Source of the DNA: Mycetocola sp.
GTDB lineage: Bacteria; Actinomycetota; Actinomycetes; Actinomycetales; Microbacteriaceae
Length of the DNA stretch: 55,997 bases
Direction of reading: 5' to 3'
Assembly (NCBI RefSeq): GCF_025464835.1
Contig: NZ_JAODMP010000006.1
Coordinates: 1-55,997, forward strand
A program made the position numbers and the translations under genes. Of the stretch, positions 22,793-30,103 are shown one piece after another. Below the pieces are notes generated by a model, which saw only the letters and a program-made list of their open reading frames with translations, was not told where the DNA came from and did not search any database. Positions within the stretch are counted from its first letter, which is position 1, and each line of letters starts with the position of its first letter.

Positions 22793-23683
22793 TCAGGTTC
22801 CCGGGGCCGTTTCCGCGAGCCATTTGTCCAGACGAGAGGGCTTGTCCGTGATGATCCCGTCGACGCCCAGTTCGCGGGCCTCGGCCCAGGTGTCGGTCGA
22901 GTTGAGTGTGTAAACCATGACGCCGAGCCCGGCTGCGTGCATGTCGTCCACAACCTCAGGGCGCTCTCGGATGGCGGACGCCCGTGTGACGACGCCGATC
23001 ACACGGAAAGACCGGGCGAAACCGACGGTGTCCTCGGGGAGCGAGCGGACGATGGCGACGCGCGGAGTGCCAGGCGCCAGGTCGGCGGCACTCGAGAGCG
23101 AGCCGAGGTTGAAGCTCATGAAGATGACACGTCCGCTGAGATCGAATCGGTCGAGCAGGCGGGTGACGGCGGCGAGGTCGTCGGTGGACCAGTATCCCTT
23201 CAGCTCGAGCAGGGTCTTTTTGGCTGTCGGCGCGAGCGCGACGAGGAACTCCTCCAATGTCGGGATCCGCTCCCCCGCGAACTCGGCCGAGTACCAGGAT
23301 CCGGCGTCGAGCTGCTTGAGTTCGGCAAGGGTCTTGTCAGCGATCGGACCGCTGCCGTCGGTGGTCCGCCCGAGCGTCCGATCATGGAAGAGGACGGGAA
23401 CGCCGTCGCGTGAGCGGGTGACATCCGTCTCAACGAACTCCTGGGGCGATGTGATGGCCCTCGTGAGCGCCGCCATCGTATTCTCGGGCGCCGTCGACCG
23501 GTCACCGCGGTGACCGGCAACGAACGACGACTCCCCCGGCTTGCGCAGTTCGCCGAACATGTCCGTCGCGTGCACCGGGGTGCTGGCCGGGTTGAGGATG
23601 AGCAGCACCACGATGGCAATGGCTGCGCAAAAGCTCGCGCCGAGCGGGAAAGCGCCGCCCGCGCGGGGGCCTGGTGTCGTCAT
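22793..23683 (-). CDS. Glycerophosphodiester phosphodiesterase, membrane-anchored or secreted
   Basis: 296 residues. A hydrophobic stretch at about 14-31 serves as signal or anchor. The GDPD barrel then shows its catalytic set: HRG (His58, Arg59), APENT (Glu67), E-x-D (Glu85, Asp87) and FHD (His100). Such enzymes release glycerol 3-phosphate from deacylated phospholipids or teichoic acids outside the membrane. The promoter region carries two GTTAC repeats at 11-bp period and a TAGAGT -10 element, similar to the repeats in front of the peptide genes, so it may belong to the same SARP regulon. Confidence 0.88.
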   Translation of the reverse strand: MTTPGPRAGGAFPLGASFCAAIAIVVLLILNPASTPVHATDMFGELRKPGESSFVAGHRGDRSTAPENTMAALTRAITSPQEFVETDVTRSRDGVPVLFHDRTLGRTTDGSGPIADKTLAELKQLDAGSWYSAEFAGERIPTLEEFLVALAPTAKKTLLELKGYWSTDDLAAVTRLLDRFDLSGRVIFMSFNLGSLSSAADLAPGTPRVAIVRSLPEDTVGFARSFRVIGVVTRASAIRERPEVVDDMHAAGLGVMVYTLNSTDTWAEARELGVDGIITDKPSRLDKWLAETAPGT

Positions 23684-23724
23684 CGACCACCTGTTCCTTC
23701 TCGGGAAGAAGTCCTGGTGGCCTT

Positions 23725-23755
23725 ACTCTAGGGGCTGCCGTTACCGTTTCGTTAC
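23725..23755 (-). promoter_or_regulatory. Putative SARP-type promoter of the glycerophosphodiesterase gene
   Basis: Read on the minus strand, GTAACG occurs twice exactly 11 bases apart (plus-strand CGTTAC at 23739-23744 and 23750-23755). The second heptamer is followed after 6 bases by TAGAGT (23725-23730). SARP activators bind direct heptamers at 11-bp period just upstream of the -10 box. The outer repeat overlaps the stop codon of the upstream gene. Confidence 0.45.
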
Positions 23756-26241
23756 TTTTGCGGACGCACCGGTGCCCCAATACGGGGGCTGCGCGGCGAG
23801 GAGGACAGCGCGGTCGCCACGTTCGTGACGACAGCATCCGTTCGTCGCACCGAGCCGGCGCGTTCATCGTCGAGGCCGGAGGCGACTGCTGCGCCCGCTT
23901 CGAGCCACGCGTTCCTGGTACGGCTCTTGAGCGAATCGAAACGGAGAGCGCCGTCATGCAGCGCAGCGTCGAACGGGACGATGATGACCGATCGCGCGAT
24001 TGCGGCGAAACCATCGGCGATGCGCCGCGCCTGTGATGGCGTGCTTGCCCGCTCAGAACGCAGGACGACGACGACCGCATTGCTGGCCAATCTCGCCGAC
24101 CGATCATCACGGTCCCTCAATGCCTCGAGGAGGAGGGCCGCAGATTCGGCCGATTCCGGTTGCGTCGTGGTGGGAATCACCAGCTGGTCGGTGACATCGA
24201 TCATGCGCAGCCATCGCGGAGCCGACTCGTCATTGCCCGAATCGAAGAGAACCATCCTGTAGTACTTGGTGGCGACTCGATGAAGGGCATCGAACACGTC
24301 GCTGGTGATGCGCTGTTCATTGGCCAGCAGTTCGGGGTTCGAGCGCAGCACATCGTATTTGTCGGCCGATTGGTGGTGAACGAATCGCGCCAGGTCCGAC
24401 ACCTGTGCGGCTGGTGACAACAGCCACTCAGCGGCCGGCACAAGGTCCTTGAGGGACGCATCGTGCCAGTCCTGCTCAGTTCTCCAGCCGAGGGTTCCTC
24501 GGGTGTCATTGTTGTCCCACGCCAGGACGCCGATGCCGCCGTAACGCCCGAACACCGCCGCCAACATGGCCGTTGTCACCGTCTTTCCGACGCCGCCTTT
24601 GCCATTGACGACCGAGGTGGTGCGCGGGCCCACCCAATGGCGGCTGACCATCTGCGCCAGGAGCCGTCGGTTATGTTCGGCGCGGGAGGGCGGAACAGAG
24701 AGATCTGTCGCCCTGGCGAGTGCGCCGCGCCATCCGTCGGCAGCCGGCGGTTCGGAACGTTCCTTGACGAGGAATGACGTCCGCGCCTCTCGTGAGACCA
24801 GCGGTGCAGGTTCCCGCGGCGGGAGTTCCGCCGGTTCGTTGACCTTCGTCTCAGGTGGAGCGGCCTTCGCCGGCTCTGGAAGCGGCCTGAATGCGTTCAC
24901 GGCTGTGTTCCTCTCTCGTCGGCGTCCAGGTTCGGTCCGATCGCTTTTGCCACGCCAGGCGACGATCCGGAGGTTGACGAACTGCATGAGAGAGAGAACC
25001 AGCTGGGTCAGGATGACCGCGAGGCCAGCCAAGGGGAGAACCAGCAGAAAGATCGACAGTGCTGCGAGGACGAATTCGGGTGGTTGCCCCGCCGCCCAGG
25101 CGGACGTGATCGTTTGCGCATGCACCCGGATGGCGGCGACCGTTTGTTCGATGATGATCGGAAGGCTCCAGACAGTCCATGCCAGCACAAAGATCAGCAG
25201 CGGGATGACGATCACCACCCAACTTGTGACGATGCGTCGCGCGGCCGGTCGCAGTTCCGCCACCCGTGGATCAGGCGCCCTGCCGGGTATAAGGCTTCGC
25301 ACCACAGGTCCCACCCGCGAGAACAGGTCGGGAACGCCGGCGAGATCGGCGAGGATGAAGTACCCGTCGAGACGGATCGTGGGAGGCAGCTGCTGGAGCA
25401 TCTGGATCTGCATCACGATCACCAGCAGAAGAAGGATGGCGTTGCCGGTGAGCAGGTAGCCGACCCCGGCAGCCAGAACACACCACACGTTGAAATACAG
25501 GCCTCCGAGATCGGTCCGGATGCGACTCACCCGGCTGAGACGGTAGGAGTCGGTGACATCGGTGAAGAACGCAGGGAAGACGATGTAGATGCCGAATCCG
25601 ATGGCTCCTGGCTTTCCCCCGCCGTACGAGCAGGCGGCCGCATGCCCCAGCTCATGGATCAAAGCGCCTGTCGTGAGCAGGGCAAACAGAGCGAGCAGGA
25701 ACCCGGGTGATACCAGCACCTGCTGAAGAGCGGACATAGCGTCGCCGGTGAGGAAGAGGGCGACATCGATCAGCACAAGGCCCGTCACCGCCGCAACGAC
25801 GACCGGGGGAAAGAAGAGCGGTGCCAGCCATCCGGCTATCCGCCGGGCCACAGGAGCCGGAAGGATCGTGGAGCGCAATCGGAGGGCGAGAAGCGGATTC
25901 GCTTTCGGCAGTCGGATCGCAGCAGTTGATTCAGCGGCCGCGTCTTCGACCAGCCCGAGCGGCACGAGCTTGGAGTCGATCAGGTGGTTGAGCCCATCAA
26001 CACTCAATTCGTTGCCGTACGCCTCGCTGATCGTCCGCGCCCATGCTTGGAGGGATTGGTTGGGCTCTGCAGAGGCGAGGACGATGTTGAGCAATTCCGA
26101 GATCTGAATCACCTGGCCGTCGCGGCGTTGCACCAGGCAGGTGACGTGCACGAGTCCCGAATCGGAGACGGGGCCGAGCATTTCCACACCGGAGGCACGG
26201 CGCCACCGTGGCTGGCGGGTCGGCAACGTTGTGGCTGTCAT
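23752..26241 (-). CDS. Fusion of PqqD-like domain, M50 membrane metalloprotease and MinD/ParA-like ATPase
   Basis: 829 residues. Residues about 25-100 resemble the PqqD-like winged helix found in front of peptide-cluster M50 proteases (DGQVIQISELLN, KLVPLGLVED). Residues about 138-430 form a multi-helix membrane protease core with zinc motif HELGH (196-200) and second-site RLDGYFILADL (290-300). A Pro-rich charged linker (about 430-540) follows, then a MinD/ParA ATPase with deviant Walker A GKGGVGKT (547-554) and VLFDSGND (664-671). ATG at 26241 was chosen for GGAGGT seven bases ahead; a frame 15 codons longer has no ribosome site. It directly follows two short peptide genes, its probable substrates. 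Confidence 0.85.
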   Translation of the reverse strand: MTATTLPTRQPRWRRASGVEMLGPVSDSGLVHVTCLVQRRDGQVIQISELLNIVLASAEPNQSLQAWARTISEAYGNELSVDGLNHLIDSKLVPLGLVEDAAAESTAAIRLPKANPLLALRLRSTILPAPVARRIAGWLAPLFFPPVVVAAVTGLVLIDVALFLTGDAMSALQQVLVSPGFLLALFALLTTGALIHELGHAAACSYGGGKPGAIGFGIYIVFPAFFTDVTDSYRLSRVSRIRTDLGGLYFNVWCVLAAGVGYLLTGNAILLLLVIVMQIQMLQQLPPTIRLDGYFILADLAGVPDLFSRVGPVVRSLIPGRAPDPRVAELRPAARRIVTSWVVIVIPLLIFVLAWTVWSLPIIIEQTVAAIRVHAQTITSAWAAGQPPEFVLAALSIFLLVLPLAGLAVILTQLVLSLMQFVNLRIVAWRGKSDRTEPGRRRERNTAVNAFRPLPEPAKAAPPETKVNEPAELPPREPAPLVSREARTSFLVKERSEPPAADGWRGALARATDLSVPPSRAEHNRRLLAQMVSRHWVGPRTTSVVNGKGGVGKTVTTAMLAAVFGRYGGIGVLAWDNNDTRGTLGWRTEQDWHDASLKDLVPAAEWLLSPAAQVSDLARFVHHQSADKYDVLRSNPELLANEQRITSDVFDALHRVATKYYRMVLFDSGNDESAPRWLRMIDVTDQLVIPTTTQPESAESAALLLEALRDRDDRSARLASNAVVVVLRSERASTPSQARRIADGFAAIARSVIIVPFDAALHDGALRFDSLKSRTRNAWLEAGAAVASGLDDERAGSVRRTDAVVTNVATALSSSPRSPRIGAPVRPQK

Positions 26242-26323
26242 AGGGGTTGACCTCCGCGTCAGGGATGGGACGGTGACGGTGGGCATGCCCTGCTCAAAGC
26301 GGGGCTATGCCCACCGCCTCGAC

Positions 26324-26527
26324 TCAGAACTGCACCGAAGCGAGGTCTTGCCACGCTCCCGCGTTCGCCACGGATCCGATCGTCGCGGCATTGATCGCCA
26401 TGGCGATGTTGATACCGATAACCGGCGAGACATTGATGTCGAAATCCAGGTAGAGGGTTTCGCGCCGAGGCAGAAGTTCCGCCGTCTCGGCATCCAGCAT
26501 CTCGGGGGTGAGGTCGATCTTGTTCAT
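26324..26527 (-). CDS. Short precursor-like peptide, second of a pair
   Basis: 67 residues. The N-terminal half is acidic and polar (LDAETAELLPRRETL). The C-terminal half is Ala/Asn/Ile/Val-rich with no Cys or Lys (AMAINAATIGSVANAGA). It aligns with its neighbour over about 57 residues, sharing LDA, ELLPxxETL and NAAT-S-AN. The start ATG has AAGGAAAG at good spacing. This leader-plus-core look is typical of ribosomally made peptides, and it lies 82 bases before the protease fusion. No known peptide family recognised; the mature product and any modification are unknown. Confidence 0.75.
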   Translation of the reverse strand: MNKIDLTPEMLDAETAELLPRRETLYLDFDINVSPVIGINIAMAINAATIGSVANAGAWQDLASVQF

Positions 26528-26546
26528 GAACCCTTTCCTTCCTCTC

Positions 26547-26579
26547 CGTCTGACGCCTGAAGCTCAGGCGCCAGACGGA
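26547..26579 (-). terminator. Strong stem-loop between the two peptide genes
   Basis: CCGTCTG and CAGACGG pair, then CGCCTGA and TCAGGCG pair after one mismatch, around a 3-base AGC loop. It begins 8 bases past the first peptide's stop and has no U tract. It probably acts as a partial terminator or mRNA stabiliser, allowing more of the first peptide than of the second peptide and protease. Confidence 0.6.
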
Positions 26580-26586
26580 AATGGTG

Positions 26587-26772
26587 CTAACCCTGGTACA
26601 CGTTGACGCTCTGCAGAGCGGTGCTGTTGGCCGAGGACAGGAGCGTCGCGGCGTTCACCGCGAGCGACGAGTTCGAGGCGTAGACCGCAGCCCAGTTGGT
26701 GTCGAAGAACAGCGTCTCCTTGCTCGGCAGCAATTCCACGGACTGCGCGTCGAGTTCAGCGATTGTCAGCAT
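26587..26772 (-). CDS. Short precursor-like peptide, first of a pair
   Basis: 61 residues, paralogous to the next peptide: LDAQSVELLPSKETL in the N-terminal half, then FFDTNWAAVYASN and LAVNAATLLSSANSTALQ. The C-terminal half is rich in Ala, Ser, Asn and Val and lacks Cys. ATG at 26772 was chosen for GGAGG about eleven bases ahead; an upstream frame has no ribosome site. It is first behind the repeat-bearing promoter region, followed by a hairpin, so it is probably the most strongly expressed product of the cluster. Confidence 0.75.
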   Translation of the reverse strand: MLTIAELDAQSVELLPSKETLFFDTNWAAVYASNSSLAVNAATLLSSANSTALQSVNVYQG

Positions 26773-26841
26773 TGTGTTCACCCCCTCCCCTGCTTCGTTC
26801 GATCGGCGAGTCGGTCGATGGAGGCAAGTCAACCGCGCGAG

Positions 26842-26869
26842 CGTTATCGTGCCGTTATCGGTCCGTTAC
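26842..26869 (-). promoter_or_regulatory. Three direct repeats at 11-bp period (putative SARP operator) upstream of the peptide genes
   Basis: Plus-strand CGTTAT, CGTTAT and CGTTAC start at 26842, 26853 and 26864, that is TAACG heptamers every 11 bases on the coding strand. A TTGACT lies just downstream (26827-26832), but no good -10 is seen at 16-18 bases, as expected for an activator-dependent promoter. The SARP gene is the next gene upstream. Confidence 0.6.
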
Positions 26870-26916
26870 GCGGCTGCAGGTCAGGATGGCCGCGCAGCTG
26901 GTGCCGTTGTGTGACA

Positions 26917-27732
26917 TCAGTTCTCCACCGACTTCCGGAGGTCGACGGACCTCCTGGCCGCCGATGGGACCGATCGCCCGGAGCCTTCGTATTGAGGGCT
27001 GCCTGGTGGGTGTCTCAGGTCATGGGTCTCGCTCGGGATGCCGAGCAGTTCGGCGAAGCGCGGCGAAGGAGTAATACCGAGTTCACGGTGGATGAGCCCG
27101 CGGAAATACTGGTAGCACTTGAGGGCGGACGCGCGGTCGTCCGCCGCGAGATAGCTGCGCACCAGCAGCAGCTGTGATCGCTCCCGGAGTGGTTCGATTC
27201 CCGAGGCGATGGTCGCCAACGCAATCGCTTCGGCGCTGTGGCCTGCGATCAGTGCCCGGCGGCACAGATTGTCGAGGGCGGAAAGGCGCTGCTGGTTCAG
27301 TCGCTCCTGCTCGAAAAGCACCCAGTCCTCGTACCAGCCCGGCAACAGGTCGGCTGTGCGCAGGAGTTCCCCTGCCTCCTGAGGGAGTTCTTCCGCCGGC
27401 CGCTCGATCGCGCTGATCAGCTCGCGGACACGGTACACGTCCACCCGGGCGCTCTCCTCGAGAGCCAGCAGGTCGCCGAATGTGCCGATCAGATGAGGAA
27501 GCTCATGCGAAACCCGGTACAGGCTCGCCCGGAGGTTGCCTGAGGCTTGCAGTTCGGAGCTCTCCGGCCATAACAAGCTCGCGAGTGAGCGCCGTGTCTG
27601 AGGGCCGCGCACGACGAGCGCGGCGATGATTCGCTGCTGTCGGGTGCTGACCACGACCGGATGACCATCTCGGCTGAGATGCCAGAACCCGAACAGGCGG
27701 ACCGTCCAGTCGGTGTGGTCATCTGATCCCAT
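26917..27732 (-). CDS. SARP-family transcriptional activator (OmpR-like DNA-binding plus BTAD domain)
   Basis: 271 residues, the size of short SARPs such as DnrI. Residues about 9-100 form the winged-helix DNA-binding domain (RLFGFWHLSRDG, RQQRIIAALVVRGP, LASLLWPESS, LRASLYRVSHELP). From about 105 to 240 is the helical BTAD domain (GWYEDWVLFEQERLNQQRLSAL, HRELGITPSP). There is no NB-ARC or TPR extension. ATG at 27732 is preferred over the adjacent GTG because GGGGGT is then six bases away. A TTGACA promoter lies 80-110 bases upstream. It probably activates the peptide-protease operon through the 11-bp repeats. Confidence 0.88.
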   Translation of the reverse strand: MGSDDHTDWTVRLFGFWHLSRDGHPVVVSTRQQRIIAALVVRGPQTRRSLASLLWPESSELQASGNLRASLYRVSHELPHLIGTFGDLLALEESARVDVYRVRELISAIERPAEELPQEAGELLRTADLLPGWYEDWVLFEQERLNQQRLSALDNLCRRALIAGHSAEAIALATIASGIEPLRERSQLLLVRSYLAADDRASALKCYQYFRGLIHRELGITPSPRFAELLGIPSETHDLRHPPGSPQYEGSGRSVPSAARRSVDLRKSVEN

Positions 27733-27810
27733 CACGGCACCCCCTTTGGGAGGAACGGGAGGAAAGCAGCGGGTCTGGGCTACTGCGCCTCAGCACTTTC
27801 AACAGGATTC

Positions 27811-27840
27811 AGGATGGCTGGGCAATCGATGAGATGTCAA
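27811..27840 (-). promoter_or_regulatory. Putative sigma-70 promoter of the SARP gene
   Basis: TTGACA (27835-27840), an 18-base spacer and CATCCT (27811-27816) precede the SARP start codon with a leader of about 70 bases. The -35 is perfect and the -10 is weak. Confidence 0.4.
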
Positions 27841-27902
27841 CGGAGTCGCGCGCACGGACCCGGGCTTGACGCACGGCGCAGGTTGTGGAAAAAGAGCGGA
27901 GT

Positions 27903-28169
27903 CTACAATTCCTGGTCGTCTCGCGGTGGCGACTGCGGGGAGCCTTCCTCCGCCTGAATAGTCGCCAGCCAGTCACGTACAGCGACGATGACATCCTCCG
28001 GCGTACTCGTGATCAACGTGGAGCCGGCGTCCCCCGGCTCGCTCGGTACGATGAGCCTGGCTCGGAATCGGCGTTCGTGCCCGGTTTCCATCCAGGCGCG
28101 AATCACCAGCGTCTGAAAAGCTCCCGTGCTTTCGGCGCCATCCGTACTCACCGAGTCGCTGTCTGACAT
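27903..28169 (-). CDS. Hypothetical 88-residue protein of the SARP/peptide cluster
   Basis: 88 residues. Acidic flexible ends surround a compact strand-rich core (FQTLVIRAWMETG, RFRARLIVPS) and a final amphipathic helix (PEDVIVAVRDWLATIQ). There is no membrane segment or Cys. The start has AAGGGAA nine bases upstream. It is on the same strand as the SARP gene with a 170-bp gap. I do not recognise a family. It may be a small accessory or binding protein of the cluster, judged from position only. Confidence 0.65.
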   Translation of the reverse strand: MSDSDSVSTDGAESTGAFQTLVIRAWMETGHERRFRARLIVPSEPGDAGSTLITSTPEDVIVAVRDWLATIQAEEGSPQSPPRDDQEL

Positions 28170-28318: not shown

Positions 28319-29074
28319 TCAGCGCTCGAGCCAGGTCAGCCAGCTCCCGTGCGGGTCAGCGAGGGCAACGGGCGATCCGTCGACGGTGATCGCGAACGCC
28401 TCGGGCGGAGCATCCGGGATGCGCTGCGTTCCTGTGACGATTCCGAGTCGTTCGTTCGCGATCCAGGTCGCCGGTGAGGATGCCATGAGATCGGCGAACT
28501 CCGTGCGCGCGTCTTCGGGCAGGTACGCGAGAACTGCTGAATGAAACACCACCACACTCTCGGCGGAGCGGGACGCCTCCTCGAGGAGCCGCGCCGTCTC
28601 GGTGAGCAGGTCGCCTCGGTCGATGCGGGCAGGGTCGGATCGGGCGATGTCCGCTGCCGCAGGGAGACGCTTTCGTCGTCCGGCGTCCTCTTCCCCGTTG
28701 ACAACGGGCCAGATGAGCGTCTCCAGCCAGCGAAGGTCGTCTTCGTCGGACACGTCGCGCGGATCGAGGTCGATCCCGGCGCGCCAGACCACCTCAGGCA
28801 CTGCGTTCGGCACTGGCGTCGCGGCGTTCGCACGTGTCGAAAGCAGTGGAGCGCCCGGGTCGCCGACGGTGCGCCCATGCCCGAAGTCGTAGCGCCACCG
28901 GTCCGGGTGCAGACAGAGCCCGGCCGACGCTCCCACTTCGATCGGCGCGACCGGTTGCCGGAGAGCCCACTCCGCAGAGAGCGGCGAGCGCGGGTCGGCC
29001 TCGACGCGGGCGAACTGCTCGGAGCGGGAACGGATGTCGGTGGCTACCGTCTCGTCTTCCACGCGCGACAGCAT
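28319..29074 (-). CDS. DUF2332 protein with an internal deletion
   Basis: 251 residues from ATG at 29074. The C-terminal 200 residues are typical DUF2332 (PIEVGASAGLCLHPDRW, VVVFHSAVLAYLP, ITVDGSPVALADPHG). The N-terminal RSRSEQFARVEADPRSP resembles the true start of the family. About 75-80 residues that normally lie between these parts are missing, and the junction (SAEWALRQPVAPIEVG) is in frame. Full-length members have about 330 residues. The protein may be non-functional, or a shortened variant. The start codon is uncertain, with a GTG four codons downstream. Confidence 0.7.
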   Translation of the reverse strand: MLSRVEDETVATDIRSRSEQFARVEADPRSPLSAEWALRQPVAPIEVGASAGLCLHPDRWRYDFGHGRTVGDPGAPLLSTRANAATPVPNAVPEVVWRAGIDLDPRDVSDEDDLRWLETLIWPVVNGEEDAGRRKRLPAAADIARSDPARIDRGDLLTETARLLEEASRSAESVVVFHSAVLAYLPEDARTEFADLMASSPATWIANERLGIVTGTQRIPDAPPEAFAITVDGSPVALADPHGSWLTWLER

Positions 29075-29171
29075 CCCACACGGCTGCCGGTCACGAAAGG
29101 CCACGCCGGAGCTTCGCGCCTGGGAGGCGGAGCAACAGTTTCCCGCGGAGGATGTGTGATCGCCTGTGGGA

Positions 29172-29226
29172 CTGAGGGCATTTTGCGGGGTGTCGAGTTC
29201 TGAGCTGAGGAGCACATTGCCCTCAG
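29172..29226 (-). terminator. Inverted repeat after the aldehyde dehydrogenase operon
   Basis: CTGAGGGCA (29172-29180) and TGCCCTCAG (29218-29226) are perfect 9-base arms separated by 37 bases, starting 17 bases past the operon's last stop. It is probably a terminator, though the loop is long. The rest of 29075-29242 shows no gene. Confidence 0.4.
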
Positions 29227-29242
29227 CCCCACCCCTCAAAAC

Positions 29243-30103
29243 TTAGATCAGGCTCTTCGTGTGCCAGACCGTCTTCGTCTCCGTCAACGCCGTGATCCGG
29301 TCGAGACTCGGCGCAGCCGGGTCGGTCCCGCCCTCTGGCCGCAACACGCGCTTGAGCGTTTCCGCTGCGGCGATCTCCAGGTCGACCCAGTTCAGTGCAC
29401 CGGCGCCGGTGAGGTCGAGGGCGTTGACATCCGCGTGTGACGCGAGCCATGGGGCGACTTCAGCGGCCGACCCGGTGAGGATGTTCACGACACCGCCGGG
29501 CACATCGCTCGTCGCGAGCACCTCGGAGAGGGTGATCGCCGACAGCGGCAGCCGTTCGGACGCGAGCACCACGACGGTGTTCCCGGCGACCAGTGCCGGG
29601 GCCACCACGCTCACGAACCCGACGAGCGAGGAATTCTGCGGGGCGACGATGGCGACGACACCGGTCGGCTCAGGCACCGACAGGTTGAAGTACGGCCCCG
29701 AGACGGGGTTCGCGTTACCGGTGACCTGCACGTACTTGTCGGCCCAGCCGGCGTACCAGACCCAGCGGTCGATGGCCTCGTCGACCTGTTGGGTGGCGGC
29801 CGACGTCGACACGCCCTCCGACTGCACGATCTCGTCGATGAACTGGGCGCGACGGCCCTCGAGGAGTTCGGCGATCCGGTACAGCACCTGGCCTCTGTTG
29901 TACGCGGTGGCATTCGCCCAGCCGGGAACCGCCGAACGCGCAGCGACGACCGCGTCGCGAGCATCCTTGCGGGATGCCTTCGCTGCGTTCGCGAGGAACG
30001 CCCCGTTCGTCGTCACGACTTCGTATGTGCGCCCGGACTCCGACCGGGGGAACTTTCCACCGATGTAGAGCTTGTAGGTCTTGGGTACGGCGAGGCGGCT
30101 CAT
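29243..30103 (-). CDS. Half-length aldehyde dehydrogenase-like protein lacking the catalytic domain
   Basis: 286 residues. It aligns with the N-terminal NAD-binding part of aldehyde dehydrogenases (YKLYIGGKFPRSESGR, PTGVVAIVAPQNSSLVGF, GNTVVVLASERLPLSAI, GGVVNILTG) and then stops with its own tail. The segment carrying the catalytic Cys is absent, so it cannot be an active dehydrogenase alone. Its start overlaps the stop of the full-length dehydrogenase by 4 bases. A partner or scaffold role for that enzyme is likely. The reading frame is clean, with no sign of decay. Confidence 0.8.
   Translation of the reverse strand: MSRLAVPKTYKLYIGGKFPRSESGRTYEVVTTNGAFLANAAKASRKDARDAVVAARSAVPGWANATAYNRGQVLYRIAELLEGRRAQFIDEIVQSEGVSTSAATQQVDEAIDRWVWYAGWADKYVQVTGNANPVSGPYFNLSVPEPTGVVAIVAPQNSSLVGFVSVVAPALVAGNTVVVLASERLPLSAITLSEVLATSDVPGGVVNILTGSAAEVAPWLASHADVNALDLTGAGALNWVDLEIAAAETLKRVLRPEGGTDPAAPSLDRITALTETKTVWHTKSLI

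Follow-up and report, generated by a model that had tools for sequence, protein, structure and literature searches.

In daptide gene clusters (MpaA, MpaP), as set out in the accessible portions of two reports (PMC10036551, PMC12338566), an RRE lies N-terminal to a site-2 protease that is encoded with several short precursors, and the same arrangement is found in the locus described here. Two further groups of peptides resemble it in how they are matured. Epipeptides (YydH/EpeP) are processed by an M50 protease that is thought to export them too, as far as the available text of the report goes (PMC10885120), and in the TMcins (TmcA/TmcP), again according to the accessible part of the source, the leader is removed by TmcP, an intramembrane S2P-clan protease that matures a pore-forming antimicrobial (PMC13252029). 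From these two accounts, EpeP and TmcP indicate that S2P-type proteases can mature membrane-active peptides. On the regulatory side, small SARP-controlled clusters combine a BTAD SARP with three repeats spaced 11 bp apart, as does our locus; in the portion of the report available (PMC10972967), several SARP operators have three repeats, 11-bp units are termed classical, and the targets are polyketide, peptide synthetase or similar pathways, whereas the target here would be a peptide-protease operon.

The locus lies in the window, that is, the whole stretch of 55,997 nucleotides from Mycetocola sp. that was analyzed, and we regard it as virtually certain that it is a genuine and conserved twin-peptide system. 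An earlier note had named an 88-aa protein, a SARP, peptides of 61 and 67 aa and a fusion protein as its parts; all are present on the minus strand, transcribed in the order P88, SARP, peptide B, peptide A and RRE-M50-MinD fusion. The span it had given, 22793-28169, does contain the cluster genes, but the GDPD gene inside it (22793-23683) is flank only: it belongs to the genus-level surroundings, being present in 5/6 genomes of the genus, and was ruled out as a member. The G+C content of the cluster is 63.6%, against 67.1 and 66.6% in the flanks. The features are as follows.

27903-28169, minus strand: P88, an 88-aa protein whose gene adjoins that of the SARP
26917-27735, minus strand: small SARP activator (BTAD) of 272 aa, Pfam BTAD E 6.4e-15
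26836-26868, minus strand: TAACG repeated three times in 11-bp steps, the putative site at which the SARP controls the peptide operon
26587-26772, minus strand: peptide B, 61 aa, leader ending in ELDAQSVELLPSKETL, core NWAAVYASNSSLAVNAATLLSSANSTALQSVNVYQG
26324-26527, minus strand: peptide A, 67 aa, leader ending in LDAETAELLPRRETL, core INVSPVIGINIAMAINAATIGSVANAGAWQDLASVQF
23752-26241, minus strand: RRE-site-2 protease-MinD fusion, 829 aa (844 aa if the start is at 26286)
25903-26211, minus strand: RRE/PqqD-like domain, N-terminal in the fusion, from an AlphaFold2 model and PqqD matches in relatives
25642-25656, minus strand: HELGH zinc motif of the site-2 protease, with residues invariant in the alignment
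23842-24621, minus strand: MinD/ParA-like ATPase domain; its KGGVGKT motif is intact, and Pfam AAA_31 and CbiA score above cut-off

For the fusion, the start at 26241 is likelier than that at 26286, since a GGAGGT ribosome site precedes it.

We compared the peptides across 16 twin-peptide loci (the window, L012-L020 and L070-L075), each of which has a single type-A peptide and between one and three of type B. The precursors consist of two conserved blocks, a leader reading EL..Q..ELLPxRETL and a core. One defining trait of a RiPP, a ribosomal precursor with leader and core accompanied by a dedicated RRE, is found here, the binding of the leader by the RRE being predicted; for the other, chemical modification on top of leader removal, no candidate enzyme was seen among the window neighbours scanned. 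As the earlier note had supposed, the peptides form an unnamed family, with no match in Pfam, NCBIfam, PHROGs or PADLOC, and titles and abstract openings of the open-access literature yielded no description of it, subscription papers lying mostly outside reach. The peptide-protease family of actinobacteria is broad and apparently undescribed. A phage origin was rejected, as no PHROG matched the peptides and a scan of viral contigs with the protease alignment confirmed no relative, and so was a defence system, as PADLOC matched none of the five cluster proteins.

Conservation along the core alternates from column to column with a period of two in two separate sets, 37 twin-type and 27 distant peptides, from which ORFs of at least 200 aa and multi-repeat matches had been left out. 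The autocorrelation at lag 2 is 0.73 in the first set and 0.53 in the second, odd lags are negative, and none of 5000 permutations was as high; set against lags 1 and 3, lag 2 gives a contrast of 1.29 and 1.21, while 689 control windows from protease, MinD and RRE reached at most 0.49. This two-residue rhythm is what a strand-turn-strand unit would yield, and it suggests that the cores are probably beta strands. In the first strand of peptide A the variable face has a mean hydropathy of 3.13 versus −0.18 for the conserved face, and in peptide B the two are nearly alike (0.58 and −0.14); the count covers 15/16 A and 19/21 B peptides, and distant peptides, which the pattern did not fit, were left out. 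The AlphaFold2 model of peptide A is helical, which counts against the beta reading, but at a low-confidence pLDDT of 55 we rejected it as evidence on structure.

Curli-type functional amyloids consist of strand-turn-strand units with conserved Asn/Gln, vary in repeat number, have two cooperating subunits and are secreted through Sec and an outer-membrane pore; functional amyloid in general denotes beta-sheet fibres that bind amyloid dyes. The present peptides are like curli in their predicted strand-turn-strand units, conserved Asn/Gln, two subunits and repeat number, which runs from 1 to 6. They differ in having a cytoplasmic leader and an S2P protease, and they show no sequence match in Pfam or PDB; among the features of functional amyloid, period-two conservation alone points to beta strands here.

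Site-2 (M50) proteases carry HExxH and a distal Asp-Gly motif in membrane helices, and the membrane part of the fusion is one by its residues: H196, E197 and H200, together with the later D292, are invariant in 10/10 aligned proteases, as are the residues of HELGH and RLDGY, and the model is helical. Pfam M50 is not among the matches of the window fusion. In the medium-confidence AlphaFold2 model (pLDDT 63.7, pTM 0.39) the N-terminus shows strands followed by three helices, the order by which the RRE is defined in the accessible part of PMC12710340. Pfam PqqD is not called in the window fusion itself and weakly matches 6/35 family members (best E 5.2e-4); the PqqD match of the fusion in PDB is also weak (E 0.19), and no RRE is among the best 50 of 831 fold-search matches. 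The PqqD domain of the earlier note thus stands as an RRE-like N-terminus, but as a divergent one that Pfam calls only weakly and in those 6/35 relatives. Recognition of the ELLPxxETL leader by this domain is plausible, as leader and protease are both conserved and found together, and cleavage is likely to be RRE-guided. In the protease tree, forms without MinD adjoin the window protease (L014, 65% identical). Two Streptomyces plasmids, NZ_CP107797.1 (L205) and NZ_CP102333.1 (L206), encode proteins related to the protease over its full length (38-39% identity) and annotated as hypothetical.

Membership in the nearest known systems was judged from models, leaders and neighbours. The nearest NCBIfam model is the daptide metalloprotease NF041824, with 111.9 bits, far under its cut-off of 300, and the second-best is the epipeptide model NF058609, with 54.3 bits (cut-off 225). 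Daptides have the leader ELExMEAP and an invariant C-terminal Thr, in the accessible text of PMC10036551, versus ELLPxRETL and 0/38 Thr-ended twin-type peptides here. No modifying enzyme was found among ten selected neighbouring proteins of the window (18118-38920): neither the daptide oxidative decarboxylase pair, aminotransferase or methyltransferase at E≤1e-20, nor a radical SAM enzyme, which sets the cluster apart from epipeptides. As three defining tests failed (model score, leader and C-terminus, modifying enzymes nearby), the cluster is not a daptide system. TMcins differ in other respects, as far as the available part of PMC13252029 describes them: TmcP is a PF11667 protein with four membrane helices, unlike the window protease, and TMcins consist of a single transmembrane helix that carries a disulfide and are accompanied by an ABC exporter and an escort protein. 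We regard the system as a probable new form of leader-guided S2P maturation.

The 272-aa SARP carries its BTAD at residues 99-230, in line with the build of small SARPs, in which an N-terminal DNA-binding part precedes the BTAD; a SARP is encoded in 15/16 twin loci, and the sixteenth, L013, begins at a contig end. Upstream of peptide B, on the minus strand from 26868 downward, the repeats read TAACGGACCGA TAACGGCACGA TAACG, units repeated directly every 11 bp, as expected of a promoter under SARP control. A scan of both strands found no second T[AC]ACG triplet at this spacing in the window. We extended the test to 17 upstream regions from 15 loci (L072 left out, L013 partial), whose self-similarity peaks at lags 11, 22 and 33 when all lags from 5 to 40 are compared. 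With a box pattern set post hoc, after the upstream sequences had been read, runs of two to four T[AGC]ACG boxes at 11 bp occur in 11/17 regions, at most 2 of 300 shuffles of each reaching them, and 6/17 have no such run; at some other loci TCACG is used instead. The recurrence of the 11-bp-spaced boxes in relatives bears out the proposal that the SARP controls the peptides, and we consider it highly probable that it acts on the peptide operon through this predicted operator. P88 is encoded less regularly, with relatives in five other twin loci (L012, L014, L015, L070, L075), hence in 6/16 with the window counted, and in a remnant locus of the genus (G002, L215).

The C-terminal domain has the deviant Walker A motif KGGxGKT and the ParA/MinD fold, Pfam AAA_31 and CbiA (CobQ/MinD-type) scoring above cut-off and ParA and MinD being its best fold and sequence matches in PDB; none of the fold-search matches listed reached E≤0.001. 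MinD is present in 9/16 twin-peptide proteases, with L112 treated as the partner of L072, and absent from 7/16. In a tree of 56 MinD domains, the window and L012 group with stand-alone proteins and the seven other fusions form another clade, a single origin of the fusion appearing in 0/200 bootstrap trees. Long branches meet at this deep split, and the identity values agree with it: the window domain is up to 58% identical to a stand-alone protein and 27-30% to the other fusions. Together with the MinD-less proteases beside that of the window, the clades and identities are most simply explained if MinD joined the protease at least twice. The earlier note had the ATPase power or position the process; a role as its needed motor does not hold as a general rule given the seven proteases without it and the two origins. 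What the twin loci share is the peptides and the RRE(PqqD)-like site-2 protease, and MinD is optional; we suggest only tentatively that it positions the protease. Ten stand-alone MinD proteins (L189-L198) are 52-58% identical to the window domain. A link to secretion loci through these relatives was rejected, as only MinD itself was common to at least four of their ten contexts.

To follow the distribution, we used the fusion protein to query 84,980 species, each represented by a single genome, and recovered nine loci, L012-L020, in Lacisediminihabitans, Arthrobacter, Specibacter, Paenarthrobacter, Intrasporangium, Georgenia and Nocardioides; the scan looks for short exact patterns and is not a census. 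Peptides lie beside the protease in 9/9 of them. In two samples drawn alike, the peptide profile matched 9/396 genomes of the order (seven at full length; G092 and G120 by the leader only) and 12/396 of the phylum, and the protease was found at E≤1e-30 in 20/396 and 25/396. With the seed genome counted, 9/9 and 11/12 of the peptide-bearing genomes also have the protease, the exception being G405, whose peptides are encoded at one end of a contig of 5.6 kb. The earlier note would have given up its reading if the peptides were widespread without the fusion, or if the cluster order were unique to one genome. The first applies by half: they do occur with proteases that lack MinD, but the peptide-bearing genomes, apart from G405, also have the protease; as to the second, peptides, protease and SARP are also found grouped in other genera.

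The protease family is far wider than the MinD fusion and includes repeat substrates and a second copy in the same genome that the earlier note did not foresee. Of the 5758 ORFs in 60 fetched loci, 94 were identified as substrates by an iterated profile, and those on protease-bearing stretches all lie within 3 kb of the protease. A leader-bearing substrate occurs within 3 kb in 50/57 fetched protease loci, a count that covers the near neighbourhood only, the loci being cut stretches, and that includes weak calls at L087, L103 and L120 (E 5e-4 to 1e-3) and L115 (1e-5). As some loci were fetched by the peptide, the 34/41 obtained for protease-fetched loci (L012-L022, L099-L128) is the fairer figure. 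The profile found no substrate in seven protease loci: L114 and L123 have leader-like short ORFs by eye, the genome of L112 encodes its peptides on a separate contig (L072), and no substrate is near the protease in L117, L126, L127 and L128, the genome of the last carrying peptides on another contig (L082).

Three forms of the family can be told apart. The first is the twin peptides with a SARP. The second, in other classes of the phylum (L077-L086), has two to four peptides at each locus, where tblastn matched neither SARP nor MinD; 12/29 of these distant peptides end in Thr, and no daptide enzymes were found among ten neighbours of two such loci. The third comprises 19 proteins of 218-353 aa, each encoded singly, that combine a similar leader (e.g., LS.EELAAQGITALPDKE) with five or six core-like repeats. 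The window genome itself has a second system of the family (G000:C23, L021:7336-10560), in which a 303-aa ORF with a leader and six core-like repeats lies beside an RRE-M50 protein with a CxxC-module tail, and similar pairs of repeat substrate and protease are found in other actinobacteria (L022, L099-L111). CxxC-at-turn modules, a pattern chosen post hoc that includes chance matches on wrong strands (e.g., L101, L013), occur in the protease tail or in a neighbouring or overlapping ORF in all seven of the second MinD group, in L071 and in others, and none is present in the window. A small basic protein (53-96 aa) with an NAA..VNA core-like stretch (family F4) adjoins the peptide arrays in five distant loci:

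L077:8828-9055, L081:3830-3991, L084:1804-2064, L085:7607-7897 and L086:7712-7876: NAA..VNA basic protein

The reading we prefer is that of a SARP-switched, leader-guided peptide-release system, to which, as a whole explanation, we give a probability of about 0.5; we observed the conserved genes, the pairing of A with B, the operator-like repeats, the catalytic motifs, the rhythm of the cores and two fusions to MinD, and from these we infer the steps of binding, cleavage site, export, assembly and role. The small SARP would bind the TAACG triplet and activate the genes for peptides B and A together with the protease gene downstream of them. The precursor leader, EL..Q..ELLPxRETL, would be bound by the RRE-like domain of the protease in the membrane, and the site-2 protease domain would cut near the border of leader and core, freeing a core of about 35-40 residues. 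As no exporter recurs at a fixed place near the protease loci, the protease may perform export as well; ABC ATPase genes lie 0.8-8.7 kb from the protease in 4/9 of L012-L020, so that a separate exporter may take part. The A and B cores would be complementary strand-turn-strand subunits that assemble together outside the cell or in the membrane, a step for which we see the chances as evenly balanced, and MinD, where present, would gather the protease into clusters or set its position.

The strongest competitor, which we consider unlikely, is a two-peptide bacteriocin-like antimicrobial, in which freed A and B would insert in a competitor membrane as helices or beta hairpins. Two-peptide bacteriocins consist of complementary peptides that kill jointly, with an immunity gene and an exporter. 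The strict pairing of A and B fits such a role, as do the one strongly hydrophobic strand face of peptide A (3.13 vs −0.18), its helical AlphaFold2 model, the accessory nature of a cluster found in 1/6 genomes of the genus, and the precedent of TmcP, as described in the available text of PMC13252029. However, no immunity or exporter candidate recurs in L012-L020 and the window besides SARP, peptides, protease, P88 and scattered ABC ATPases, period-two conservation is unlike that of helices, and the multi-repeat relatives do not resemble bacteriocins. A RiPP pathway in which genes away from the cluster supply enzymes that modify the cores of the peptides, while the protease does no more than strip the leader, is quite improbable: an RRE-S2P protein with several precursors is the daptide layout (PMC10036551, accessible part) and Thr, the residue modified in daptides, ends 12/29 distant relatives, but it ends 0/38 twin-type peptides, no daptide modifying enzyme is among the ten window neighbours scanned, and none recurs in L012-L020 and the window. 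That the peptides are signals, freed cores or leaders feeding back on the SARP or P88 in a quorum or stress circuit, is very improbable, for although site-2 proteases often act in signalling and the adjacent SARP and P88 were kept together in G002 after peptides and protease were lost, no receptor or anti-factor recurs among the loci compared and P88 is in just 6/16 twin loci, window counted.

If SARP-switched, leader-guided release is correct, the peptides are a family of substrates unnamed in the libraries searched, an RRE-protease fusion can be an entire maturation machine, and RiPP-style leader recognition is tied to beta-assembling surface or pore polymers. Repeated recruitment of MinD by an intramembrane protease would also raise the testable question of whether a ParA/MinD switch positions peptide release. 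A bolder and rather doubtful generalization is that of a phylum-wide actinobacterial class of leader-guided beta polypeptides that intramembrane proteases fitted with an RRE would free with the help of neither modifying enzymes nor an exporter of their own. The class would range from twin single-unit peptides to proteins of five or six units forming functional amyloid or beta-barrel pores by self-assembly, and MinD would have been taken up on at least two occasions to localize the protease in the cell.

Finally, we compared the insertion site within the genus, where the cluster is found in 1/6 genomes. In G001, which lacks it, the GDPD and DUF2332 genes are 323 bp apart. G002 has kept the SARP (74% identical) and P88 (52%), with peptides and protease gone; this remnant occupies L215 7431-8645, and the aligned flanks are some 130 bp apart. 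In G004, ABC-transporter-like genes stand at the cluster site (by eye). The site is variable and the system accessory. On the flank, the DUF2332 gene of the window (28319-29239) matches profile positions 126-334 of 334, its first part being unrecognised. Beyond it, at 29243-30103, a half-length aldehyde dehydrogenase of 286 aa lies beside a full-length one, and a copy of this 286-aa gene is also found in G002, G003 and G004.
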